This document shows positions 2,469 to 34,966 of a stretch of DNA of 57,917 nt, in pieces (position 1 is the first letter of the stretch; every line of letters starts with the position of its first letter). Source of the stretch: a virus; IMG/VR virus record IMGVR_UViG_3300042389_000654, positions 1 to 57,917 of that record; one strand, 5' to 3'. A model generated the notes under the pieces. That model ran no database searches. It worked only from the letters and a program-made list of their open reading frames with translations, and was not told the DNA's origin. The position numbers were made by a program, and so were the translations under genes.

Positions 2469-2699
2469 ATGTTGAATAACCTTATTGAATATATTAAGAT
2501 ACATGAAATTAGTTTATTACAAGACGCTGAAAAGCTTCAAACCTTAATGGATGAATTTGAAGGTGATTACGATTCATATGAATATCGTGAATTGGAAACA
2601 GAGGATGTTATTAATACTGGGGAGCTTATTGCCACCAGGCATTTATTGTCAGTGGCCACAGATATACTTAATAATGACCACCAAGGAAAGGGATACTAA
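2469..2699 (+). CDS. Hypothetical acidic protein
   Basis: A 76-residue, mostly helical and acidic protein without a recognised domain. It starts three bases after the YubB-like gene and its stop overlaps the next start by one base (TAATG), so it belongs to the same operon. The start codon follows GAGGTATAGACA, giving a GAGG ribosome site. Confidence 0.7.
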   Translation: MLNNLIEYIKIHEISLLQDAEKLQTLMDEFEGDYDSYEYRELETEDVINTGELIATRHLLSVATDILNNDHQGKGY

Positions 2700-2956
2700 T
2701 GAAACCACTACCACCACATTTACAACGCATGGTTGATTCAGGAGTAAGCGGTCTTGATATCATGCATGGTGAATTAAAAAACTGGATGTTAATGGCTGAA
2801 CAAGACCTAGCAGAGGCTAGTGAGCAAGAGCAAAGAACCGAAGAAGCAATGGATTCTATGGTCCGCACAGAATGTGAAGGACGCCTTGACGCCTTGACTG
2901 CAATATATCAATTAACATATGACCTTTCATTTGCAATAGGTGATAAGAATGCCTAA
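2699..2956 (+). CDS. Hypothetical helical protein
   Basis: An 85-residue, Glu/Ala/Met-rich protein, probably helical, with no recognised domain. It begins in the TAATG overlap with the gene before it, with AAGGAAAGG just upstream as ribosome site. It overlaps the following zinc-ribbon gene by eight bases. Confidence 0.7.
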   Translation: MKPLPPHLQRMVDSGVSGLDIMHGELKNWMLMAEQDLAEASEQEQRTEEAMDSMVRTECEGRLDALTAIYQLTYDLSFAIGDKNA

Positions 2957-3128
2957 GTGTTTAGATTGTAATAATACAACTACCTTCACATATATGGAGG
3001 ATAGCTATAACGAAGCCGATTACGATCAGAACGGTGAACTTGCGGATGTCACATATAAGGAGTATTATGATATACGTGAGGCAACTTGCAAAAAATGTAA
3101 TTCCACCAATATCGAAGGGAAACTATGA
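2949..3128 (+). CDS. Zinc-ribbon microprotein
   Basis: A 59-residue protein with CLDC at the N-terminus and CKKC near the C-terminus, the spacing of a two-knuckle zinc ribbon separated by an acidic stretch. The ATG at 2949 is chosen over an upstream GTG (2940) because the protein then begins directly at MPKCLDC. It overlaps the previous gene by eight bases and the next by four (ATGA). Confidence 0.65.
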   Translation: MPKCLDCNNTTTFTYMEDSYNEADYDQNGELADVTYKEYYDIREATCKKCNSTNIEGKL

Positions 3129-3445
3129 AAACTACACTAACTGACTTAATATACGCAGGCTCATTTGCCGTTGACTCAGGTCAAGCAATGGTTGGCGACC
3201 CATGCTATTTAGATGAATGGGATACTAATAAAAACGAGGAATGGAATATCGAAGGCAAGCAAGGTCAATACTCTTATCATGGTGCTAGTGCTACTACACT
3301 AGAAAATGGTTATGGTGCTTTAGATATTGGTAAAGCCATAGTATTTAACACAGGCTATGGAGACGGCGTTTATCCTGTATATGTAAAACTTAATGATGAC
3401 GGCAGAGTATCAATGGTTGTAATTGACTTTGAGGGAGAAGAATAA
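3125..3445 (+). CDS. Conserved phage protein with VDSGQ/GDPCYL motif
   Basis: A 106-residue protein with a recognisable phage pattern: FAVDSGQ at about 14-20 followed by VGDPCYLDEW at about 23-32, then a Gly-rich segment and a C-terminal strand-like region. Similar proteins occur widely in phages without a known role. It starts in an ATGA overlap, with GAAGGGA upstream, and its stop overlaps the next ATG. Confidence 0.7.
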   Translation: MKTTLTDLIYAGSFAVDSGQAMVGDPCYLDEWDTNKNEEWNIEGKQGQYSYHGASATTLENGYGALDIGKAIVFNTGYGDGVYPVYVKLNDDGRVSMVVIDFEGEE

Positions 3446-3807
3446 TGGGAGCACGTATTAATTATATATTTAAAAACAATGAGGGGCCGCATGTGGTTTT
3501 ATATAGCCACTGGGGTGAGAGTGATTGGAAGACTGACATTGCTGCAGCTCTAGACCATGCACGTCCAAGGTGGGGCGACGAATCATATCTAACACGTATG
3601 ATTATTAGCTATCTTATTCAAGACCAATTGCTAGACCAGCACGGTTTTGGTATTTATGCTATTAATGATATCTCTAGGGACCTAGGAGATACAACTGTCA
3701 TTATTGATATTAATCAAGAGACTGTCATTGACGACGGTAACAAAGTAGACTGGGACTTATTTATCCAGGCCTATGGACCAAAGATCTTAGCTGAGCAGGC
3801 GGTGTAG
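3445..3807 (+). CDS. Conserved phage hypothetical (SHWGE motif)
   Basis: A 120-residue protein with the pattern VVLYSHWGESDW (about 17-28), then ARPRWGDESYLTRMIIS, which I associate with a common conserved hypothetical of actinobacteriophages. No activity is known. The start overlaps the previous stop by one base (TAATG), with GAGGGAGAAG as ribosome site. It is the last gene before a hairpin and a new promoter. Confidence 0.7.
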   Translation: MGARINYIFKNNEGPHVVLYSHWGESDWKTDIAAALDHARPRWGDESYLTRMIISYLIQDQLLDQHGFGIYAINDISRDLGDTTVIIDINQETVIDDGNKVDWDLFIQAYGPKILAEQAV

Positions 3808-3828
3808 TGGGGAATACCGCTAACAGGT

Positions 3829-3863
3829 TGAAGGGCGTATACTGTGGTGGGTTGCGCCCTTCA
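3829..3863 (+). terminator. Nine-base-pair hairpin between two transcription units
   Basis: TGAAGGGCG (3829-3837) pairs perfectly with CGCCCTTCA (3855-3863) around a 17-base loop; a short T run (3868-3872) follows. This fits a terminator for the operon that ends at 3807, yet the 3' arm contains the -35 box of the next promoter, so it could also be an operator. Confidence 0.6.
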
Positions 3864-3880
3864 CCACTTTTTGATATAAT
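3852..3880 (+). promoter_or_regulatory. Extended -10 promoter (TTGCGC-17-TATAAT)
   Basis: TTGCGC (3852-3857) and TATAAT (3875-3880) are 17 bases apart, and TGA precedes the -10 box. A very similar arrangement, including TTGCGCC and TTTGATATAATG, drives the sulfotransferase at 5960. Confidence 0.7.
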
Positions 3881-3898
3881 GAACTGAGAGGAGTTTGT

Positions 3899-4135
3899 AT
3901 GTATCGTATTAGCAAGGCAGTTAATACCAGCATTGAGGAAAAAACCGCAATAGGTATAGGCAAACTACTTTCCAACTTTCACCTTGATTTAGAGAAGGTT
4001 GGTTATTACTTAGCCAAAGCCACACCATATTTGGTTTATCGCAGGGCACTTGAAGTATTAGAATCAGCACAATTCCAACAAGACATAGAGGAACAGAAAC
4101 GGATAGAGTATGGAAAATATGACAAACTTTACTAA
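3899..4135 (+). CDS. Hypothetical protein
   Basis: A 78-residue helical protein with mixed charge and no recognised domain. It follows an excellent promoter with a short leader and GAGAGGAG as ribosome site. Its 3' end overlaps the next gene by 26 bases. Confidence 0.7.
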   Translation: MYRISKAVNTSIEEKTAIGIGKLLSNFHLDLEKVGYYLAKATPYLVYRRALEVLESAQFQQDIEEQKRIEYGKYDKLY

Positions 4136-4388
4136 CAGATGTGAAATACTAGGACAGTTCTATTCCCAATACCGAGAGGTAAAAGATTTTACAGACTTTA
4201 TGGATTTTAATGATTTGGGTTTGCCTCTAGCATATTTTGTATCAGAAGATTTAGTTGAGGTTTCTGATGATGGTGTTAGATATATAAATGAAACATGGGA
4301 TTTATTTATTGCATCATTGGAAATAAAAGATACAGGGTTTGATGCTTTAGAAGATGTATTTTTTGCAGCAGGGGAATCTCAAAAATAA
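4110..4388 (+). CDS. Conserved-type phage hypothetical (NDLGLPLAY)
   Basis: A 92-residue acidic protein containing FNDLGLPLAYFV (about 33-44) and NETWDLF, a pattern I associate with small conserved phage proteins of unknown function. It overlaps the gene before it by 26 bases. The start could also be the ATG at 4119. It is the last gene before the origin-like region. Confidence 0.65.
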   Translation: MENMTNFTNRCEILGQFYSQYREVKDFTDFMDFNDLGLPLAYFVSEDLVEVSDDGVRYINETWDLFIASLEIKDTGFDALEDVFFAAGESQK

Positions 4389-4396
4389 AAGCTTAG

Positions 4397-4420
4397 CCCC
4401 CCTGCGGGGGCCCGGGGCCC
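4397..4420 (+). terminator. GC-only hairpin block ending the operon
   Basis: CCCCC-TGC-GGGGG followed by GGGCCC and GGGGCCC pairings, eight bases after the stop at 4388. The stem is very stable in this AT-rich context. The following bases (TATTTACC) are only weakly T-rich, so an intrinsic terminator is likely but not certain. It also marks the left edge of the gene-poor region. Confidence 0.5.
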
Positions 4421-4544
4421 TATTTACCAAACCTTAAAACCTTATTACGATAAAGACATTACGATCCCAAACCTTATTTTCCAGAAATACATTAAGAACC
4501 TTTTCTAAAAAATCGCTGAAAGTTTTCAAACCTTATATAAGGTG

Positions 4545-4550
4545 TATAAT
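4545..4550 (+). promoter_or_regulatory. Leaderless -10 box with operator-like octamer at -35
   Basis: TATAAT sits six bases before the ATG at 4557. No good -35 is visible; instead an octamer CAAACCTT (4527-4534) and a CCTTATATAAGG palindrome (4531-4542) occupy that place, suggesting regulation. Confidence 0.55.
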
Positions 4551-4556
4551 GTATCT

Positions 4557-4706
4557 ATGAGTCCAAGACATTTTTCTAATAAGGGTGGACCTTATTTCAT
4601 TAATGATGGTTTTACAAAACAAAACGATCCTATACCTACTACTAAGGTTTCTACTATAGATAGGATTAAATCTTTCTTTAAGTCCCGGGCCAAAAAGCAA
4701 AACTAA
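4557..4706 (+). CDS. Leaderless basic microprotein
   Basis: A 49-residue protein with a basic C-terminus (starts MSPRHFSNKGG, ends SFFKSRAKKQN). It is not a recognised family. The ATG lies six bases after TATAAT, matching the leaderless pattern used elsewhere, and there is no Shine-Dalgarno. It is the only plausible gene inside the octamer array; a positively charged product could bind nucleic acid, but that is a guess. Confidence 0.5.
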   Translation: MSPRHFSNKGGPYFINDGFTKQNDPIPTTKVSTIDRIKSFFKSRAKKQN

Positions 4707-4905
4707 TAACCTAATTAGACATTACGACAGGCGCCAAAAAATCGCTGGAAGTTTTGCGGGATCCAGAAATCAATACACATAATACCCCCTATATAAAACA
4801 ATAGAATATCAAACCTTTTCTCCTGGTTTTTAAATATTTATCAAACCTTTTATATATTTTTTCCTGGTTTTCTGGGCAAATTTGGATATTTTTTTATAGG
4901 GTTTT

Positions 4906-4939
4906 AAGGTTTGACAAACCATTATATATGTGGTATAAG
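4906..4939 (+). promoter_or_regulatory. Consensus promoter under a GGTTTG-A-CAAACC palindrome
   Basis: TTGACA (4911-4916), a 17-base spacer and TATAAG (4934-4939, preceded by TGG). The perfect 6+1+6 palindrome GGTTTGACAAACC (4908-4920) covers the -35 box and is built from two inverted copies of the octamer core. No gene starts until 5168, so the transcript would be mostly non-coding and would run into the DnaA boxes. Confidence 0.65.
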
Positions 4940-5094
4940 GTCATATTGGATATAAAGGTTTGACATATAAGGTTTGGTATGGTAAGGTTTGGCCGCCAGA
5001 CATTACGAAGCCCCTTATAAAATCGCTCAATAACCCATTTCCCTCCCTTTTCCTCCACCAAAACCATATATTAAAAATATCAGTAAGATTTATA

Positions 5095-5147
5095 TGTGGA
5101 TAACCTGTGGATAACTAACATATTTTAGGCTATTTACATGTGGATAA
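5095..5147 (-). promoter_or_regulatory. Three perfect DnaA boxes
   Basis: TGTGGATAA, the reverse complement of the consensus TTATCCACA, occurs at 5095-5103, 5106-5114 and 5139-5147, all in one orientation and spaced 11 and 33 bases start to start. The only other exact copy I noticed lies inside the terminase gene. The third box falls in the spacer of the next promoter, so DnaA binding might also repress it. Confidence 0.75.
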
Positions 5148-5161
5148 CTATCTGATATGAT
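5133..5161 (+). promoter_or_regulatory. Leaderless promoter (TTTACA-17-TATGAT)
   Basis: TTTACA (5133-5138) and TATGAT (5156-5161, preceded by TGA) are 17 bases apart, and the ATG at 5168 follows after six bases. A DnaA box lies in the spacer. Confidence 0.6.
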
Positions 5162-5167
5162 GGGTAT

Positions 5168-5254
5168 ATGAAACAACTTCTTATAGGATTATTACTATTA
5201 TTTCTCTTTGCTAACTACATGGCATATCTACAACATCTACGTATGACTCAATAA
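5168..5254 (+). CDS. 28-residue single-pass membrane peptide
   Basis: A tiny product with one hydrophobic helix (Leu/Ile/Phe-rich from about residue 4 to 15) followed by a polar end. It has a leaderless start six bases after TATGAT. No family is recognisable at this length. Its existence depends on the promoter being real. Confidence 0.45.
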   Translation: MKQLLIGLLLLFLFANYMAYLQHLRMTQ

Positions 5255-5346
5255 TTTCCAGGGGATAAACAATCCTGGCTATCTGGGATATAGGTCATAT
5301 CCGTATATCTGGGGTGTATTACTACTAGGGGTAATAGTGCTTCTTC
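5255..5346 (+). other. Hairpin-rich intergenic stretch
   Basis: Contains CCAGG/CCTGG (5258-5262 with 5274-5278), GGATAT/ATATCC (5286-5291 with 5297-5302, five-base loop), and ATTAC/GTAAT pairing near 5318-5336. These may end the transcript of the 28-residue gene or form part of the origin. No gene is seen. Confidence 0.4.
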
Positions 5347-5375
5347 TTGACTTTCCCCCGAAAATTTGAGATAAT
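5347..5375 (+). promoter_or_regulatory. Leaderless promoter (TTGACT-17-GATAAT)
   Basis: TTGACT (5347-5352), 17 bases, GATAAT (5370-5375), then six bases to the ATG at 5382. No ribosome site is present. Confidence 0.7.
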
Positions 5376-5381
5376 AGATAC

Positions 5382-5678
5382 ATGTCTATTAAACAAGTTA
5401 GAACAAAAAACAATACCTATAGCACTGTCAAGTATGATAGTGAAGGAAAGATCTTAACCCCAAGCAGACTAAGAGAGCTTAGAAAACTTAAAAAGGTTGC
5501 TAAAGAACTTCCTAAAAAGAACCATAAGAAGAAAACTAAAAGCTCTAAATGGATTAGGCTTGAAAGCAAGTTTGAGGGGGTCTGCTGTGCCTGCAACAAC
5601 AATATCTATACTGGAACAGAAATCTTATGGAACAGAAAAAATAAAAAAACTAAGCATAGATTTTGTGCTACCGTATGA
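5382..5678 (+). CDS. Basic protein with C-terminal zinc knuckle
   Basis: A 98-residue, very Lys/Arg-rich protein (basic run at about residues 30-55) ending in a Cys-containing segment: CCAC at about 73-76 and a late HRFC. The layout suggests a small nucleic-acid-binding protein with a zinc site. Its start is leaderless. Its stop overlaps the next start (ATGA at 5675). Confidence 0.6.
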   Translation: MSIKQVRTKNNTYSTVKYDSEGKILTPSRLRELRKLKKVAKELPKKNHKKKTKSSKWIRLESKFEGVCCACNNNIYTGTEILWNRKNKKTKHRFCATV

Positions 5679-5869
5679 AATGTAAAAAATGTGGGATGGA
5701 ACAGGAAAACCTTGAATATTGGATTGTTCATCAAACCATGAGTGATAATACTATTTGGTGTGCTAATGCCAGATCTAAAAGAGTTGAAGATATAACTACC
5801 GATATTGTTAATAGATATAGGGCTGCAGTTAGATCTCAATATGGGAATAAGAAAAGACATAGGCAATAG
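5675..5869 (+). CDS. Small zinc-ribbon protein
   Basis: A 64-residue protein beginning MKCKKCGME, with a first CxxC at residues 3-6 and later His and Cys residues (VHQT, WCANA), followed by a basic C-terminus. The ATG at 5675 is preferred over 5663 because it makes a four-base ATGA overlap with the previous gene and starts right at the CxxC motif. Confidence 0.6.
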   Translation: MKCKKCGMEQENLEYWIVHQTMSDNTIWCANARSKRVEDITTDIVNRYRAAVRSQYGNKKRHRQ

Positions 5870-5925
5870 GAGATATTAACCGATATTGCCCGTGTAGGGC
5901 ATAGGGTGGTTTGTTTGTCTCTATT

Positions 5926-5953
5926 TTGCGCCGAACTTTAAATTTGATATAAT
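5926..5953 (+). promoter_or_regulatory. Leaderless extended -10 promoter of the sulfotransferase
   Basis: TTGCGC (5926-5931), 16 bases, TATAAT (5948-5953) preceded by TGA, then six bases to the ATG at 5960. It closely resembles the promoter at 3852-3880. Confidence 0.65.
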
Positions 5954-5959
5954 GTTAAT

Positions 5960-6568
5960 ATGAAAATTCTTGTTCTTGCCCAATCCCGTTCGGGATCTAC
6001 GGGCTTTCAGGCATGGCTAAAGTCTGAGTTTAATGAACCCGTAATGCTTGAACCATTTAACCATAACAGGCTTCCACAGGAAGAGCTTGACCTCCAACTA
6101 GAAACAGTTAAATCTGATGATGGACTTATCTTAAAATTTGTAGACAATATGTATTTAGATATGCCACACATAAACGATGTTAATGTTCTTATGGGCTACT
6201 TTGATAAAGTCATTGGCCTAACCAGAGAAAATGATTACGATTGTGCTTACAGCAGGCTAATGAGTCATCTTTCAGATGATTGGAGAGGATCCCGTCAAAC
6301 CATAAAAGTAGATCAAGAAACAATAGACTCAAACCTTTTCCTAATGGATGAGTATACTAAACATGCTCAGCATCATAAGGCTTACATTAGATCGCTACCG
6401 ATTTTTCAAACCACATATGAAAAAATATATCAGGATAAAGATGTTAAGGACCTTATAGACTATTTAGAGATTGAGCCTAAGCACTTAGATTATCTATTTG
6501 AGAATAAAAATGTTACCAGCAACTGGAACATGAAGATGTATGAATACCACAAGCCTGTGATAGAATAG
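5960..6568 (+). CDS. Sulfotransferase-family protein
   Basis: A 202-residue protein with the sulfotransferase fold pattern. The N-terminal strand and loop MKILVLAQSRSGST (residues 1-14) match the 5'-phosphosulfate-binding loop, and VIGLTREN with a following SRL at about 84-101 resembles the 3'-phosphate site (Arg and Ser). Such enzymes move sulfate from PAPS to hydroxyl or amino groups of glycans or small molecules. It is short for the family but has both PAPS motifs. It starts six bases after TATAAT. A PAPS-making enzyme candidate is encoded at 18784-19542. Fold moderately sure; substrate unknown. Confidence 0.65.
   Translation: MKILVLAQSRSGSTGFQAWLKSEFNEPVMLEPFNHNRLPQEELDLQLETVKSDDGLILKFVDNMYLDMPHINDVNVLMGYFDKVIGLTRENDYDCAYSRLMSHLSDDWRGSRQTIKVDQETIDSNLFLMDEYTKHAQHHKAYIRSLPIFQTTYEKIYQDKDVKDLIDYLEIEPKHLDYLFENKNVTSNWNMKMYEYHKPVIE
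6561..6566 (+). promoter_or_regulatory. Leaderless -10 box TAGAAT
   Basis: TAGAAT overlaps the sulfotransferase stop and lies six bases before the ATG at 6573. No -35 consensus is seen, so it is a weaker case than its neighbours. Confidence 0.4.
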
Positions 6569-6572
6569 ATAT

Positions 6573-6695
6573 ATGGAAGAAAAATGTTTTTATTGTAATA
6601 GGCCTGCTACTCATAACGATTTGGTTAAAGTGGGAGACGACTATAAGGTTGCTAATGTGTGCCTAAAGCATATATCTTTTAGTCTTACCAGCTAA
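6573..6695 (+). CDS. 40-residue zinc-binding microprotein
   Basis: Starts MEEKCFYCNRPATH and later has CLKH: a CxxC plus C and H arrangement typical of a single zinc knuckle, as in the small CxxC...HH-type proteins of actinobacteria. Leaderless start as above. It ends five bases from the convergent hydrolase stop. Confidence 0.5.
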   Translation: MEEKCFYCNRPATHNDLVKVGDDYKVANVCLKHISFSLTS

Positions 6696-6699
6696 TATA

Positions 6700-7464
6700 C
6701 TAAGAATAGTTATAGTCGTCTGAAGCTTTAAACATATGTGTTGAATAATGAGAATACTTTTTTCTTAATGTTTCTTGATCATCATGTAGAAAACTCTCAA
6801 TCAGTTTATCTATTGGACCATCTTGCTTGTTTAAGTAATCTAATATAAGATGTGGGGCATCTCTGAATATTAAGAAGGAAGCATCAATATCTTCTGTTTT
6901 ACACATCTTTATGGTCTGATCAGAGGAGATTCTTTCTTCTTCATCCCCGCCAAGAATAATAAGATATTCAGTATCTTTTGCAAACTTAATAGTATGATTA
7001 ACTAAATTTTCTATTCTGTCAACAAAAAACTTAAAGTCCCCATTAAATCTTTTGGGATCAACATTAAGTATTGTGTATTGTGGTCCTATGGCTAAGCACT
7101 TTTCAACCTTTATAAAATTAGAAAGATAGACAGCTTCAAACCCACCCATAGACATTCCAGTGGTGTAAACCTTTTTATCTTTAATTAAATCTTTAATTTG
7201 TTCTATCACAAACTCTGCTGTAAAGTTATTAAAAAAACTAACTTCTGAGTCAACAATATGTATTATGTTTTTATCATTCTTTGTATAAAAATGTAGGCTC
7301 TCCCTTGGCATTCTAGGAAGTGCCATAGCAAAGGCAAATATGATTATTACAGAGTCTGAGTCATTGTCTATGTGAGATATTGTAATATTTTTATCTGCAT
7401 AGATACTTTGTTTTTTTTCATTTATTTCTTCTATGGTTAAATTTCTGTATGTTTGTTCAGGCAT
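6700..7464 (-). CDS. Alpha/beta hydrolase
   Basis: A 254-residue protein with an alpha/beta hydrolase pattern: the nucleophile elbow GMSMGG places Ser at about residue 105, followed by a short helix; LGGDEEE (Asp about 174) and APHLIL (His about 205) complete a plausible Ser-Asp-His triad. Substrate unknown; esterase or acyl-hydrolase activity is likely. An upstream start at 7539 is possible on paper, but those 25 codons lie across the promoter, whereas the ATG at 7464 follows TATACT by seven bases. It is convergent with the small gene at 6573 and divergent from 7530. Confidence 0.65.
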   Translation of the reverse strand: MPEQTYRNLTIEEINEKKQSIYADKNITISHIDNDSDSVIIIFAFAMALPRMPRESLHFYTKNDKNIIHIVDSEVSFFNNFTAEFVIEQIKDLIKDKKVYTTGMSMGGFEAVYLSNFIKVEKCLAIGPQYTILNVDPKRFNGDFKFFVDRIENLVNHTIKFAKDTEYLIILGGDEEERISSDQTIKMCKTEDIDASFLIFRDAPHLILDYLNKQDGPIDKLIESFLHDDQETLRKKYSHYSTHMFKASDDYNYS

Positions 7465-7471
7465 AATATAA

Positions 7472-7480
7472 AGTATACCA
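7472..7480 (-). promoter_or_regulatory. Leaderless extended -10 promoter of the hydrolase
   Basis: On the - strand TGG-TATACT, seven bases before the ATG at 7464. A 17-base spacing would put its -35 at 7495-7500, exactly where the divergent promoter has TTGACA, so the two promoters probably compete. Confidence 0.6.
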
Positions 7481-7494
7481 GAGAAGTTTGGTCC

Positions 7495-7523
7495 TTGACA
7501 GCAAGGTTTTGTATAGATATAAT
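7495..7523 (+). promoter_or_regulatory. Perfect consensus promoter TTGACA-17-TATAAT
   Basis: TTGACA (7495-7500) and TATAAT (7518-7523) with 17 bases between. The ATG of a small gene starts at 7530, six bases after the -10 box. Confidence 0.8.
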
Positions 7524-7529
7524 AGATAT

Positions 7530-7634
7530 ATGAATGCACCTAAGATTATGAATATGGACTGGAGAGCCTTGGGCTATTGGCCAGTATGGAAAAATGGTAA
7601 AAAGATATGGGTTAAAGATGAATCCAAAGATTAA
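7530..7634 (+). CDS. 34-residue Trp-rich microprotein
   Basis: Short basic product rich in Trp and Lys (contains WRALGYWPVW and KIWVKDE). Leaderless start under the strongest promoter of the region, no ribosome site. Overlaps the next frame by 17 bases. No family recognised. Confidence 0.5.
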   Translation: MNAPKIMNMDWRALGYWPVWKNGKKIWVKDESKD

Positions 7635-7779
7635 ATATATGACTTATGATTTTTATGCAGGTGAGTGGCATGGCAATTGTGGTGCTTGTTTTACTGACTT
7701 ATTTGCCCCCACAAAATCAGAGTATTTAATGCAATTTTCAAAACACACACACTCAGATAAATGTTTGGGTGGATACTAA
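7618..7779 (+). CDS. Small Cys/His protein
   Basis: A 53-residue protein with CGAC in the middle and HTHSDKC near the end, which could bind zinc. Starts at 7594 or 7639 are also possible in the same frame; 7618 is a compromise since it gives a short overlap with the 34-residue gene. Co-transcribed from the consensus promoter upstream. Confidence 0.5.
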   Translation: MNPKIKYMTYDFYAGEWHGNCGACFTDLFAPTKSEYLMQFSKHTHSDKCLGGY

Positions 7780-7789
7780 AACATATCGT

Positions 7790-7818
7790 TTGACTTATGT
7801 AGCAAAATAGTGTATGCT
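7790..7818 (+). promoter_or_regulatory. SSB promoter (TTGACT-17-TATGCT)
   Basis: TTGACT (7790-7795), 17 bases, TATGCT (7813-7818). The leader is about 20 bases and includes AGAAAGG before the ATG at 7845. Confidence 0.65.
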
Positions 7819-7844
7819 TATAAATAACAAAGAAAGGTAACAAA

Positions 7845-8246
7845 ATGTCAAATCCAATTATAACAATGACAGGTCGTATCGGAACAGAACCAGAAATGAT
7901 TAATTATTCTGGCGGTAAGGGAATTAAATTCCGTATGGTAACAAGTGATAGAGTTAAGAACAAATCTGGAGACTGGGAAGATAAAGATACTTCTTGGTGG
8001 AATGTTGAAGCATGGTCAAGAGTAGCAGAGCAGGCACAACATGTTCTTAAAAAGGGTCAAGAGATTACGGTTGTGGGAACTATTAGAGAAGAGTCTTATA
8101 TTGATAAGGCTGGCAATAATAAGTTTGTTACTCAAATTAAAGCTAACAACATTTCTGTTAGTGTTTATAGCCTACAAAAAAACTTAGTTGGATCTGCGCC
8201 AAGTAAAGATAACTCTTGGAGCGTTGATGGTGACAGCCCATTCTAA
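7845..8246 (+). CDS. ssb: Single-stranded DNA-binding protein (SSB)
   Basis: A 133-residue bacterial-type SSB: OB-fold opening ITMTGRIGTEPEM, the central W-rich strand DTSWWNVEAW (about 49-58), and GQEITVVGTIREE. The acidic C-terminal tip ends DGDSPF, the tail that recruits replication and repair partners. It coats ssDNA during replication and recombination. It has its own promoter and a normal leader. A second, unrelated ssDNA-binding candidate sits next to DnaE at 43561. Confidence 0.93.
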   Translation: MSNPIITMTGRIGTEPEMINYSGGKGIKFRMVTSDRVKNKSGDWEDKDTSWWNVEAWSRVAEQAQHVLKKGQEITVVGTIREESYIDKAGNNKFVTQIKANNISVSVYSLQKNLVGSAPSKDNSWSVDGDSPF

Positions 8247-8247
8247 A

Positions 8248-8349
8248 ATGTTTTGCTCTGTTTGTGGAACTAAGCTAATTAATTCAGACTGCAATAGTTG
8301 TTTTAGTAACTCTAATGCGTTAAAAGAATTTGAGGATGAGGATGACTAA
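8248..8349 (+). CDS. 33-residue zinc-ribbon peptide
   Basis: Starts MFCSVCGTKL and has CNSC further on: two CxxC knuckles in a 33-residue protein, a minimal zinc ribbon with an acidic tail. It begins one base after the SSB stop and overlaps the next start by eight bases, so it is probably translated from the SSB transcript. Confidence 0.5.
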   Translation: MFCSVCGTKLINSDCNSCFSNSNALKEFEDEDD

Positions 8350-8557
8350 CTGGACTGAAGAACTATCTGATGAACATAAAGAACAGATTTGGCATTTTAT
8401 TGTCGAAACTGTTAAAGATATTCGTGAACAAATTGCTCAAGACATTGAGGCTACTAACGGTCTTTGGAAACAAACTAGTGCTGGTAAATCTAGGAAAACT
8501 CAAAAAGCATTTGCAGTATCTGCTGCAATCGCAAGGGGACAAAATGAAAAACTATAG
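8342..8557 (+). CDS. Hypothetical helical protein
   Basis: A 71-residue helical protein without a recognised domain. The ATG at 8342 is preferred to 8330 because GAGGATGAGG lies just before it as ribosome site. Part of the SSB operon. Confidence 0.6.
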   Translation: MTNWTEELSDEHKEQIWHFIVETVKDIREQIAQDIEATNGLWKQTSAGKSRKTQKAFAVSAAIARGQNEKL

Positions 8558-8572
8558 GTTAGGGGGATACCA

Positions 8573-8665
8573 GTGATAAGTGTATTAATAGCAATAGCTT
8601 CTTTTGTTGTAGGATATGTTGCATGTTATTTTATTATGACACATAATGTAGATCAAAAAAAGTAA
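8573..8665 (+). CDS. 30-residue single-pass membrane peptide
   Basis: GTG start with AGGGGGA as ribosome site eight bases upstream. The product has a hydrophobic segment over residues 2-22 (Ile/Val/Ala/Phe) and a short polar end. Similar tiny membrane peptides are frequent in phages. The endonuclease VII gene starts one base after its stop. Confidence 0.5.
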   Translation: MISVLIAIASFVVGYVACYFIMTHNVDQKK

Positions 8666-8666
8666 T

Positions 8667-9041
8667 ATGAAAATTTGTAGTAAATGTAAAATAAACCTAG
8701 AGGATTCAGACTATTCTCCTTCCTCTGGGGGAAAATATTTAAGACCAGAATGTCGCAATTGTGCTAAAAAACTTTCTAAAGAAAGAACAGAGTTAAGAAA
8801 ACTTTATGGATACCCGAAAGATGGGTATGTGTGTCCAATTTGTCTTAAAAATGAAGAAGAGTTAATAGGAACTGGTGGCAATGCAAGTGTTTGGGTAGTT
8901 GACCATAACCACACTACAAACACATTTAGGGGTCATTTATGTCATAATTGTAATCGAGGCCTTGGAGTTTTTCAGGATGATCTTAATAGATTACAAAGAG
9001 CAATAGACTATTTAATTGGCAGCAATAGCTCAGTTGGTTAG
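8667..9041 (+). CDS. Recombination endonuclease VII-like HNH nuclease
   Basis: A 124-residue protein of the phage endonuclease VII group. It has an N-terminal Cys pair (CSKC) with a second pair (CRNC), CPIC at about 56-59, and the catalytic HNH core VVDHNHTTNTFRGHLCHNCN. These enzymes cut branched DNA (Holliday junctions, heteroduplex) or act as homing-like nickases. Its last 23 bases, including the stop, lie within the 5' part of the tRNA-Met gene. It could be a mobile nuclease that settled beside the tRNA. Confidence 0.85.
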   Translation: MKICSKCKINLEDSDYSPSSGGKYLRPECRNCAKKLSKERTELRKLYGYPKDGYVCPICLKNEEELIGTGGNASVWVVDHNHTTNTFRGHLCHNCNRGLGVFQDDLNRLQRAIDYLIGSNSSVG

Positions 9042-9095
9042 AGCCCCGAACTCATAATTCGGTCGTCGTAGGTTCAAGTCCTACTTGCTGCACCA
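9019..9095 (+). tRNA. tRNA-Met (CAT), possibly Ile-lysidine type
   Basis: Acceptor GCAGCAA/TTGCTGC, D arm with AGCTCAGTTGGTTAGAGC, anticodon stem CCGAA/TTCGG with loop CTCATAA (anticodon CAT at 9053-9055), T arm GTAGG/CCTAC around TTCAAGT, discriminator A and encoded CCA. The fully paired 1-72 position argues against an initiator tRNA. It could be elongator Met or an Ile tRNA modified to lysidine. The endonuclease VII gene overlaps its first 23 bases. Confidence 0.95.
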
Positions 9096-9116
9096 ATAAA
9101 GATTATTAAAAATTTG

Positions 9117-9125
9117 TGGTATAAT
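9117..9125 (+). promoter_or_regulatory. Extended -10 promoter with leaderless mini-ORF
   Basis: TGG-TATAAT. Five bases later an ATG (9131) opens a four-codon frame (M-E-E-K) whose TGA overlaps the ATG of the oxygenase at 9142. The same layout occurs before the paralogue at 10043. Confidence 0.6.
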
Positions 9126-9141
9126 TTGGTATGGAGGAAAA

Positions 9142-9963
9142 ATGAACTATACTCAACCGATTGAATTTCCAGGACTAGAAAACGTAATAGAAAATGTAAA
9201 CTTATATAAACAAAAGTTTTTAGATGATTCTATTGTTGTTTTTAGAAATGCCAACCTAACTTACGACGATCAGTCGTTTTTACATTCTTCTTTAGGAACA
9301 CCTTTTATTTATTACATTGACACTGAAGGTGACGACAGAGCAGCTAGATATATTGAAAATCATTCTGAAAGAAATTTAATTGAAACAGCAACATCTAATG
9401 ATATTTTGTTGCCTTGGCATATAGAACATCTTTACGCAGGCAATTCAAAAGTAACAGCAACATGGAATATGACAAAATTTACTACAGATATTGAAAATGG
9501 AAAAACATACTTTATAGATTGTGAAAAAGCGTATAACGCAATGCCAGAAGAATGGAAAGCTTTTTTAAATGCTTGCAAGATCAATAACCCAAACCCAGCA
9601 ACTGATGAAAATTTAGATGACTTTTCTCCAATTGTAAATCATTGGATTACTGGAAACCCAACACTTAGACTTGCACCTAGAAAAAATAACAATAGTGGGT
9701 CTACACTTAGATCTGTTTATAATAGAGAAGCAACAGAACTTGAAAAAGCATTGTTTGAAGAAATCTTTACTTGGTTTGGCAATTACGTTTATGACAATGA
9801 AGAAGAAAGAATTGTCCATAAATGGCAACAGGGAGATCTTTTAATTGTTGACATATTTAAATTAGCCCATGCCGTTACTGGTGGATTTAGCCCAGACGAT
9901 AGAGAATTTATTGGTATGTGGGGATTTAAGAATCCAACAGTTCCAAGCAACACTTTGCCTTAA
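9142..9963 (+). CDS. TauD/TfdA-like Fe(II)/2-oxoglutarate dioxygenase, copy 1
   Basis: A 273-residue protein with the double-stranded beta-helix dioxygenase pattern. The metal triad is H93-x-E95 (in LPWHIEHLY) and H243 (LAHAVTGG), with R254 (PDDREF) placed to hold 2-oxoglutarate. The TauD family oxidises unactivated C-H bonds of small molecules or carrier-bound substrates. The HxE form, not HxD, is less common but used in this family. Start follows GGAGG. It has a tandem paralogue at 10043 with identical positions of all key residues. First gene of a glycan-type locus; substrate unknown. Confidence 0.7.
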   Translation: MNYTQPIEFPGLENVIENVNLYKQKFLDDSIVVFRNANLTYDDQSFLHSSLGTPFIYYIDTEGDDRAARYIENHSERNLIETATSNDILLPWHIEHLYAGNSKVTATWNMTKFTTDIENGKTYFIDCEKAYNAMPEEWKAFLNACKINNPNPATDENLDDFSPIVNHWITGNPTLRLAPRKNNNSGSTLRSVYNREATELEKALFEEIFTWFGNYVYDNEEERIVHKWQQGDLLIVDIFKLAHAVTGGFSPDDREFIGMWGFKNPTVPSNTLP

Positions 9964-10018
9964 AAATACTTTTAAGCCATACTTTATCTATTATTTGTAA
10001 AAACCAAGAACAACTGTG

Positions 10019-10027
10019 TGGTAAAAT
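10019..10027 (+). promoter_or_regulatory. Extended -10 promoter with leaderless mini-ORF, copy 2
   Basis: TGG-TAAAAT. Five bases later ATG (10033) opens a seven-codon frame ending in TGA inside the oxygenase gene. The sequence ATGGAGAAAAATG mirrors ATGGAGGAAAAATG of copy 1. Confidence 0.5.
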
Positions 10028-10042
10028 AAACTATGGAGAAAA

Positions 10043-10861
10043 ATGAAATATACTGATCCAATAGAATACCCAGGCATGGACTTTTTTTTAGAAAACATGG
10101 AAATGTATAGGGAAAAATTTTTAAATGATTCTATTCTTGTTTTTAGAAATGCAAATTTAAACCTTACAGAGCAATCATACTTACACAAAGAATTGCGAAA
10201 CGTCTTCAATTTTTATAATTTTAATAATGCAACAGATAAATTGCACAAATATGAAGAAGACCACTCAAAAAGACAACTAATTGATGTAGCGGGAACTAAT
10301 GACATTCTATTGAACTGGCATATGGAGCATACATATGAAAGCAATCCCATAGTTATCTCAACCTGGAATATGATAAATTTTTCTACTGACCCTGAAAATG
10401 GAAAAACATATTTTATGGACTGCCAAAAAATTTATGAAGATATGCCACAAAATTGGAAAGATTTTTTAATTAGTTGCAAAGTAAATATTCCCTTTTTTAC
10501 TGACACATTTAGGCCTGATGACTACTCTCCAATTCAATCCCATTGGATTACCTCAAGCCCATCAATAAGAATGATTATTGGAAAAGAGTCTGGCAAAATT
10601 AATAAACTTATGTCTGTAAATAACAACGAGCCAACACAGTCTGACAAAGATTTATTTGAAGAAATTTGTTTTTGGATTGGTAACTATGTTTATAATAATG
10701 AAGAAAGTAGAATTGTTCATAAGTGGCAACAAGGAGATTTGGTTATTCCAGATTTGTTTAAGCTAGCTCATGCTGTTACTGGAGGCTTTTCTCCAGAAAA
10801 TAGAAAATTTATTGGCATCTGGGGTTTTAAGAATGCAGTAGATACAATCGATGTTTCATAA
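10043..10861 (+). CDS. TauD/TfdA-like Fe(II)/2-oxoglutarate dioxygenase, copy 2
   Basis: A 272-residue paralogue of the preceding gene. H93-x-E95, H243 and R254 are at the same residue numbers, and long blocks such as NGKTYF, RIVHKWQQGDL and LAHAVTGGFSP are shared. This is a tandem duplication followed by divergence, for example in the 50-75 region, so the two may act on different substrates. GGAG precedes the start. Its end overlaps the next oxygenase by 11 bases. Confidence 0.7.
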   Translation: MKYTDPIEYPGMDFFLENMEMYREKFLNDSILVFRNANLNLTEQSYLHKELRNVFNFYNFNNATDKLHKYEEDHSKRQLIDVAGTNDILLNWHMEHTYESNPIVISTWNMINFSTDPENGKTYFMDCQKIYEDMPQNWKDFLISCKVNIPFFTDTFRPDDYSPIQSHWITSSPSIRMIIGKESGKINKLMSVNNNEPTQSDKDLFEEICFWIGNYVYNNEESRIVHKWQQGDLVIPDLFKLAHAVTGGFSPENRKFIGIWGFKNAVDTIDVS

Positions 10862-33181: not shown

Positions 33182-34966
33182 TTATATTAGATTAAGTTTA
33201 TCAAGAAAATCTCTAACATCGTTAGGCATTTCCCGATTATCTAATTCTACCATATCTCTTTGCTTTTGTGCAAGTCGTGCACTAGAGCTCCAGGTATGGA
33301 CATCTATCTCTATATTAGTATTCTTTTGTGTATGGGAGATGGCTCCAAATACTGCTCCACATACTGCATCCGCTAAGTCTTTAGATTTTTTGCGTGGGTG
33401 GTCAACCCTGTTACCCTTCATTATTTTTAATTCTGACATTTCTTCAAGAAGTAATGGGATCATAGGAATAGCAACCCGCTCTTCATAAATCATCATAGCT
33501 AAATCTTCATAGTGTTTTTTAGCAACAGATACAGTCTCAGTTCTTATTCCAACTGCTTGTAATTCATTTTGAATATCAAATGACTGCCATCGGTCAAATG
33601 AAACCATACCAAGATTAAAACCCTGTCTACGTAAATTCATAATCCATTGTTTTACTTCTGAAAGATTTACTGGACCTTCTGCTCTTGGCTCCCACCATGC
33701 AACGGCATCAACAACAACAATCGGGGCTACCTGTTCATAATCTTTAATTACTTGAATACTTACCCACTTATCCACATGGGCAATTGCTACAGCACACTTA
33801 TCATGCTTTTGGGCAAGGTCAGCATGAATATAATAAACCTTATCTGGATCTGGTTTAAAAGTTTCATCAAACCTTCTAAATGAATCTAATGGGTTTCTAG
33901 AGTTCATACATTTTTCTAGTTTATCTTTTTGTTTAAAAAATGCATCAGAAGAATAAGTTGGCATACAGGCAAAACGCATCATTGCATCACCAAGGTCTGT
34001 ATAAAAAGCTAACTTAAAGTCTTCTATTTTACGTGTAGGGTTTACTTCCCATGTAGGTCTTTTGAATGCAAATACTCTTGGTATTTTATATTGGAGAATT
34101 GTATCCTCGTCCCACGAAATTTCAAACTGATTTCCTGGATCACTATGAGGTAAATCTTCATTCATTATGAAAGTGTGGGTGCGTTCAATAGTTTCTTTTT
34201 CAGCAATAACTGATTCATACCGCTGGGAAATAAAGTCACCTTGATAGCGTGGGAATGAAAGAAGAACTACTTTGCCTAAGTCAGGAAAACGAGAGTCTAC
34301 TGTTCCACGAAATGCTTTATAAATATTATCTGCAGTTTTACCTTGTTCATTACCTGTTCCAACCTCTGTAGCAAAACCAGAAATTTCATCAAGAACTGCC
34401 ATTAAAAGGTTTAAACCCTCATGAGATTCTCTTTCTGAGTGACCAGAATAAACGGTTATGCCTTTATCAAATTCAACTGAATCTGCTTTTGGATTATACT
34501 TTCCTGCAAACCAAGGTGACTTTTCAACCTTTGTTTTAAATCCTTTAAAAAAAACATTTTTAGCTTGTTGTGCGTTAACTGCAACGTTAATAATATCAAT
34601 AGCATCCCCTGGTGGCTTACCAAAATAAACTGCTGGATCTTTAAGGCATAAAAGTTTATACACTACATATGCACATGCTACTGTTGATATAAAGTCTTTT
34701 CCACTACCCTTGCCAAGTTGAAGAATAAGTTCATTCTTGGTATATTTATTAAAATGATTTACACCTTTTTGTTCTCCCATTAAATCTATAAGATCTTCCT
34801 TACGATAAATTTGGCTCATAGCTTCTACAATTTCATACTGAATGTCAGACAAGATAGGCTGGCCTAAATACTCTGGAGATTGCACAAAGGTTTTTACATC
34901 TACTGGTGTTTCAACAAAATGATTTTCTTTTAAGACATCAAGAAACTCATTGAACATCGTGGACAA
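33182..34966 (-). CDS. terL: Terminase large subunit
   Basis: A 594-residue packaging motor protein. ATPase half: Walker A-like QLGKGSGKDFIS (about 79-90), Walker B LLMAVLDEISGF (about 186-197). Nuclease half: YIHADLAQKHDKCAVAI (about 372-388, first metal Asp) and KDLADAVCGAV (about 547-557, last Asp). It cuts concatemeric DNA and pumps it into the prohead. Overlaps the small-subunit candidate by 20 bases. The head genes it works with are not in the window. Confidence 0.95.
   Translation of the reverse strand: MSTMFNEFLDVLKENHFVETPVDVKTFVQSPEYLGQPILSDIQYEIVEAMSQIYRKEDLIDLMGEQKGVNHFNKYTKNELILQLGKGSGKDFISTVACAYVVYKLLCLKDPAVYFGKPPGDAIDIINVAVNAQQAKNVFFKGFKTKVEKSPWFAGKYNPKADSVEFDKGITVYSGHSERESHEGLNLLMAVLDEISGFATEVGTGNEQGKTADNIYKAFRGTVDSRFPDLGKVVLLSFPRYQGDFISQRYESVIAEKETIERTHTFIMNEDLPHSDPGNQFEISWDEDTILQYKIPRVFAFKRPTWEVNPTRKIEDFKLAFYTDLGDAMMRFACMPTYSSDAFFKQKDKLEKCMNSRNPLDSFRRFDETFKPDPDKVYYIHADLAQKHDKCAVAIAHVDKWVSIQVIKDYEQVAPIVVVDAVAWWEPRAEGPVNLSEVKQWIMNLRRQGFNLGMVSFDRWQSFDIQNELQAVGIRTETVSVAKKHYEDLAMMIYEERVAIPMIPLLLEEMSELKIMKGNRVDHPRKKSKDLADAVCGAVFGAISHTQKNTNIEIDVHTWSSSARLAQKQRDMVELDNREMPNDVRDFLDKLNLI

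Follow-up and report, generated by a model that had tools for sequence, protein, structure and literature searches.

The stretch of DNA analyzed here (the window) is a virus record of 57,917 bases without end repeats. A gene at positions 48 to 1064 of the plus strand encodes a DUF932 protein (PF06067, E = 2.9e-45; phrog_1221, E = 2.3e-100) and represents the syntenic anchor of the locus. Further on, the same strand carries three perfect DnaA boxes, TGTGGATAA, at positions 5095 to 5103, 5106 to 5114, and 5139 to 5147, which a sequence-only reading had taken to mark a candidate phage replication origin. Their coordinates, identity, common orientation, and confinement to 53 bases were confirmed. 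An order-3 Markov model based on the window puts the chance expectation for a same-strand triple within 53 bp at 7e-8 per window, and the triple is non-random. The only other copy of TGTGGATAA in the window, at position 33768, lies far from the site on the minus strand. Since TTATNCACA, a less strict pattern, shows no enrichment over the window as a whole, it is the cluster, not the count, that constitutes the signal.

Two short open reading frames of the plus strand flank the site. One of them (positions 4557 to 4706) encodes 49 amino acids and starts 7 nt after the TATAAT −10 box of a promoter-like site at 4523 to 4550. The other (positions 5168 to 5254) encodes a hydrophobic peptide of 28 amino acids, possibly a small membrane protein, and has its start codon 6 nt after a −10 box. 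Judging from these distances, both genes would be of the leaderless type. Small leaderless-type genes are also seen repeatedly in the equivalent region of related phages, several of which also encode similar hydrophobic peptides after the third box.

Phage group and replication proteins

A search with the DUF932 protein revealed 476 related stretches in viral contigs, the best 80 of which were fetched. Many of the related contigs are close to or longer than 100 kb, so the window probably comprises about half of a genome; in two long relatives, the ends overlap by 127 bp, as would fit a circular assembly. Among the replication proteins of the phage are DnaB, DnaG, and DnaE. Its DnaE is up to 56% identical, and its DUF932 protein up to 53% identical, to those of the Streptomyces phages of the family Stanwilliamsviridae, with the shared proteins being only ∼50 to 56% identical, and no named phage was found to match the site at the DNA level. 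This protein-level affinity to Streptomyces phages suggests a host among the Actinomycetota. The C-terminal domain of DnaA (PF08299) was absent from the 17 records searched, which leads to the rejection of a phage-encoded DnaA and, as far as DnaA is concerned, upholds the earlier statement that the phage has no recognizable initiator. The window also carries two adjacent genes for TauD-family dioxygenases (PF02668) at positions 9142 to 10861, with glycosyltransferase and methyltransferase genes further on.

A conserved non-coding element

The boxes form the end of a single-copy non-coding element (approximately positions 4911 to 5147) that the relatives carry at the same place. The core of this element, 163 alignment positions corresponding to 4950 to 5103 of the plus strand, was recognized in the window by nhmmer with an E value of 1.2e-33; the same model gave one match in the window and exactly one in each of the six long relatives. 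Judging from these alignments, the element is conserved throughout a large group of uncultured phages. In the aligned relatives, its blocks follow each other in the order AAGGTTTGG, CATTACGA, GCTCaAT, three CTCCACT repeats phased at 10 bp, AAAATATCAGTAAGATTTATC, and then the boxes. The CATTACGA motif is found at positions 5001 to 5008 on the plus strand, with additional copies at approximately 4456 and 4720, and its TTACG is invariant in 32 aligned elements.

Conservation was scored in 66 distinct elements, comprising the window and loci that were fetched by protein searches only and were not selected for boxes. TCAGTAA and ATTACG served to select these elements, so the counts carry no information on the conservation of these two motifs. 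Independently of this selection, TCAGTA followed by a box was found in 58 of the 75 loci that reach the place, and 15 of the other 17 still contain TCAGTAA-N-AT.

The CTCC repeats are degenerate in the window (positions 5034 to 5059, plus strand) and follow the 10-bp phasing in most relatives, where a spacing of 10 dominates; at least two such repeats are present in 58 of the 66 elements. In the predicted transcript, they resemble the anti-Shine-Dalgarno core, and an mRNA-binding RNA is conceivable. The search for conserved RNA structure in the element found none, an argument against selection for a structured RNA product; a search of the window against Rfam returned three tRNAs and nothing else.

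The segment next to the boxes is indeed AT-rich, as had been noted from the sequence: the 40 bp that end at the first box (positions 5055 to 5094, plus strand), including TCAGTAAGATTTAT at 5080 to 5093, have a GC content of 22.5%. In all 66 elements, the corresponding 40-bp core is below 35% GC, making it a putative unwinding region.

Promoters and octamers

At its other end, the element starts with a conserved σ70-type promoter on the plus strand (positions 4911 to 4939), TTGACA (4911 to 4916) and TATAAG (4934 to 4939) separated by 17 bp, which is directed into the element. An equivalent near-consensus inward promoter is present in 65 of the 66 distinct elements. In a larger set of 130 distinct elements, some of them fetched with the box pattern, it was found in 95%, whereas the reverse strand gave 9% and shuffled sequences 5%. 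This promoter, unnamed in the earlier description, leads into the AT-rich core and is the best clue to an origin. The sequence-only reading had placed a strong promoter near the boxes, and one is predicted there: TTTACA (5133 to 5138) and TATGAT (5156 to 5161), again 17 bp apart and on the plus strand (5133 to 5161), match the consensus in 10 of 12 positions, have a TG before the −10 box, and hold box 3 in their spacer. It is far less conserved than the promoter at 4911 to 4939.

The octamers AAGGTTTG and CAAACCTT, previously described as an iteron-like array, do form an array, with 9 of the 18 copies in the window located between positions 4381 and 5200. However, they occur in both orientations, are irregularly spaced, and in some cases continue into −35 hexamers (AAGGTTTGACA), so they look linked to promoters and unlike classical iterons. 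Regular same-orientation iterons with a cognate Rep protein were not found, and the subset of open reading frames that was scanned contained no Rep-like family. The site thus shares with the iteron origins that include DnaA boxes, such as P1 oriR and RK2 oriV, the combination of repeats, an AT-rich segment, and boxes in one short non-coding region, but differs from them in the arrangement of the octamers, in the lack of a Rep initiator among the proteins scanned, and in the loss of the 10-bp CTCC repeats from some members of the phage group.

The DnaA box cassette

The expectation that related phages would keep the boxes was borne out only in part: at least two perfect boxes are present in 49 of the 66 elements, and boxes are absent from the other 17. 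In the protein-fetched set, the number of boxes per element is either zero or two to four, never one, and the 138 boxes located within 200 bp are all in the same orientation, with none opposite. The first box starts 15 bp after TCAGTAA in 46 of the 49 box-bearing elements, and in 42 of them box 2 follows box 1 at a spacing of 11 or 12. The elements that lack boxes are scattered over the tree of a neighboring gene, with at least four changes forced by well-supported branches; as this gene is short, the branches are long, and the genomes are mosaic, only several changes are claimed. Given the all-or-none number, the single orientation, and the several changes on the tree, the boxes behave as a cassette beside an otherwise constant element. 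Five of the box-lacking loci (L007, L010, L068, L086, and L091) have stretches resembling one another, such as GCTATCAAACCACCCAAATCGGACATTT, in place of the boxes, a hint that cassettes may have been swapped.

Boxes in early regulatory regions

The long relatives contain 7 to 9 perfect boxes per ∼100-kb genome, compared to 0 to 2 copies of the reversed word, and most of these boxes are located at the element or within ∼13 kb upstream of it. Other box groups, 9 to 13 kb upstream of the element, are found near CRP-like palindromes of the TGTGA-N6-TCACA type, which number 4 to 9 per genome versus 0 to 1 for the control patterns. DnaA boxes next to such palindromes are seen in several early regulatory regions, for example, upstream of the element at positions 2686 to 9852 of locus L012 and at similar loci. 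A phage-encoded CRP was considered and rejected, the only matches being sub-threshold ones of 14 residues; these phages may be reading host DnaA and CRP together.

The location of boxes near CRP-like palindromes in upstream early regions indicates that boxes are also part of early regulation, and since they occur in other early promoter regions, a box cluster by itself is no marker of an origin. Accordingly, DnaA might act here as a transcription factor only, with the boxes being early-promoter operators that tie the early genes to the level of host DnaA, much as CRP-like sites would elsewhere. DnaA is known to regulate transcription (PMC8203912), and the presence of box 3 in a promoter spacer, an arrangement that recurs in similar forms, fits this explanation. 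However, only 13 of the 130 elements have a box inside a recognizable downstream promoter, and the scan of the window placed no promoter over boxes 1 and 2, which are the best conserved pair. Together with the convergent setting of the boxes in Streptomyces phage NootNoot (see below), these observations make it unlikely that transcription control is their sole role.

The numbers of boxes per genome, and their clustering as sites of the high-affinity type, also bring to mind a datA-like titration of host DnaA that would shut down host initiation as the phage copies rise. Titration leaves unexplained both the single orientation of the boxes and their fixed position by the AT-rich core and the promoter, and it seems a very improbable explanation of the site.

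Counterparts in Streptomyces phages and terminal repeats

The Streptomyces cluster BE phages (Stanwilliamsviridae) have, in addition to the related DnaE and DUF932 proteins and a colinear gene pair, perfect boxes in the corresponding non-coding gap beside the right-end early genes. Such boxes were found in all 13 genomes inspected, and 12 of these have at least two; the exception, Bmoc, has one perfect copy and one copy with a single mismatch. These boxes conform to the E. coli type, even though the DnaA protein of Streptomyces has been reported to prefer TTGTCCACA. Unlike in the window, their orientation is often mixed, with convergent pairs, and the 163-position element was not detected in the left 22 kb of NootNoot.

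In NootNoot, a repeat of 10,787 bp begins at position 120300, and the two box starts precede it by 93 and 71 bp. They lie where convergent genes end, so that none of the annotated genes would require a promoter there. The DUF932 homolog of NootNoot is encoded inside this ∼11-kb terminal repeat, and two genes of the repeat are colinear with genes that, in the relatives, precede the element by 3.9 to 7.6 kb. Among the eight Samistivirus-type genomes with examined ends, seven have a perfect box 70 to 71 bp outside the start of the ∼11-kb repeat and a second one at −93 to −95, and the single perfect box of Bmoc is at −114. Such ends have been mapped in the BE1 phages using read pile-up and coverage (PMC5764925). 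When the repeat starts were compared with the alignment of the element, a CATTAC-type motif was noticed near the Streptomyces repeat starts; it was given no weight.

These distances raise the possibility that the site is the boundary of a long terminal repeat, either a T5-like region of injection stop and first-step transfer or a packaging terminus, at which the boxes would dock a host protein. The first 14 kb of the T5 genome include three perfect boxes, at 6121, 6194, and 9510, in pre-early non-coding DNA; all are within the 10,219-bp repeat, and the one at 9510 is inside the annotated injection stop signal, for which repeats, palindromes, and DnaA boxes have been described (2026 paper, PMC13250531). 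However, the T5 boxes are inside the repeat, whereas those of the Samistivirus-type phages are outside it. Homology to the anchor gene was rejected: the T5 gene comparable to it in size and position does not encode a DUF932 protein, and the likeness to T5 is architectural rather than homologous. Other observations also count against a terminus. The family of the window itself shows only the assembly-type overlap of 127 bp, in two relatives, and SPO1, whose repeat measures 13 kb, lacks a perfect box at the boundary and has a single one in 18 kb. In all three members of the Loccivirinae examined (Wakanda, Annadreamy, and BillNye), the boxes are 5.1 to 6.1 kb away from the repeat start, so a terminus function is not general, while an origin or regulator role can be. 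The fixed distance of 70 to 71 bp in the Samistivirus-type genomes may reflect common descent of the whole stretch. On balance, a terminal-repeat boundary appears a doubtful explanation of the site.

GC skew

A switch of the GC skew near 5 kb, proposed earlier as support for an origin, is absent: both in the window and in the long relatives, the cumulative skew keeps rising across the site. In the window, it climbs to a maximum at ∼16 kb, where the gene direction flips. Five relatives have the minimum 14.7 to 18.4 kb upstream and the maximum 8.5 to 11.6 kb downstream of the element; in the sixth, G001, the minimum falls at the edge of the region examined. NootNoot has no skew minimum at its boxes. 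The skew tracks the direction of the genes and does not support the idea that replication proceeds bidirectionally from the site. It is an indirect feature of origins and is compatible with one that is used before the phage switches to another mode of replication.

A candidate replication origin

Nearly all elements have the inward promoter and the AT-rich core, and three-quarters have the cassette; therefore, an origin activated by transcription fits the data better than its rivals. In the preferred reading, the site is a transcription-activated phage replication origin in the early region that is assisted by host DnaA, with a rough probability of 0.45. The evidence for it is architectural throughout. 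The non-chance boxes, the single-copy element, the origin-like order of promoter, AT-rich core, and DnaA boxes, as judged from the alignments, and the recurrence of boxes in Streptomyces phages agree with the original proposal, while the skew and the 17 box-less elements do not.

Under this model, the strong promoter would drive RNA polymerase across ∼140 bp of non-coding DNA into the AT-rich core. Just past the core, most members have two to four boxes in one orientation, and host DnaA bound there could help to open the core or to keep it open. The opened core would then allow loading of the phage DnaB helicase, DnaG primase, and DnaE polymerase, and replication would start at the site. In the box-less members, transcription would be expected to act together with factors of the phage or with other factors of the host.

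The site has AT-rich DNA to the left of TGTGGATAA, the orientation that DUE and R1 have in E. coli oriC. It resembles this basal unwinding system of bacterial oriC in having AT-rich DNA beside same-orientation perfect boxes, with transcription nearby. It differs in having only two to four boxes, which are missing in one-quarter of the members, in the lack of a skew switch, and in the helicase, primase, and polymerase being supplied by the phage. The DnaA-trio, made of 3′-(G/A)AT-5′ repeats, is located between the box and the AT-rich DNA (PMC10797057); visual inspection alone picked out one or two fitting triplets in CAGTAAGATTTATC, and no run was recognized.

Origin, terminal-repeat, transcription, and titration roles can overlap, and the remaining weight goes to something not considered here. 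One combination of these roles, clearly a long shot, would be an origin that borders a long terminal repeat, where DnaA-assisted, transcription-activated initiation helps to duplicate the repeat during concatemer maturation and couples the genome ends to host replication control, the DnaA cassette being gained and lost as a unit.

No data were found on where replication of these large phages starts, and the element offers a single site that is short, conserved, and open to testing. The family that carries it includes hundreds of related contigs, and Streptomyces phages that can be cultivated have a counterpart. If the origin reading is correct, a lytic phage makes optional use of the host initiator by way of a cassette, although it supplies helicase, primase, and polymerase itself, and the dependence of its replication on host DnaA could be tested directly by comparing members with and without boxes.

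A search of the GTDB genome collection with the core pattern gave a single match, in a 22.9-kb contig (L270) of a Chitinophagaceae metagenome-assembled genome, which is most simply explained as a binned phage contig or fragment and probably is one.
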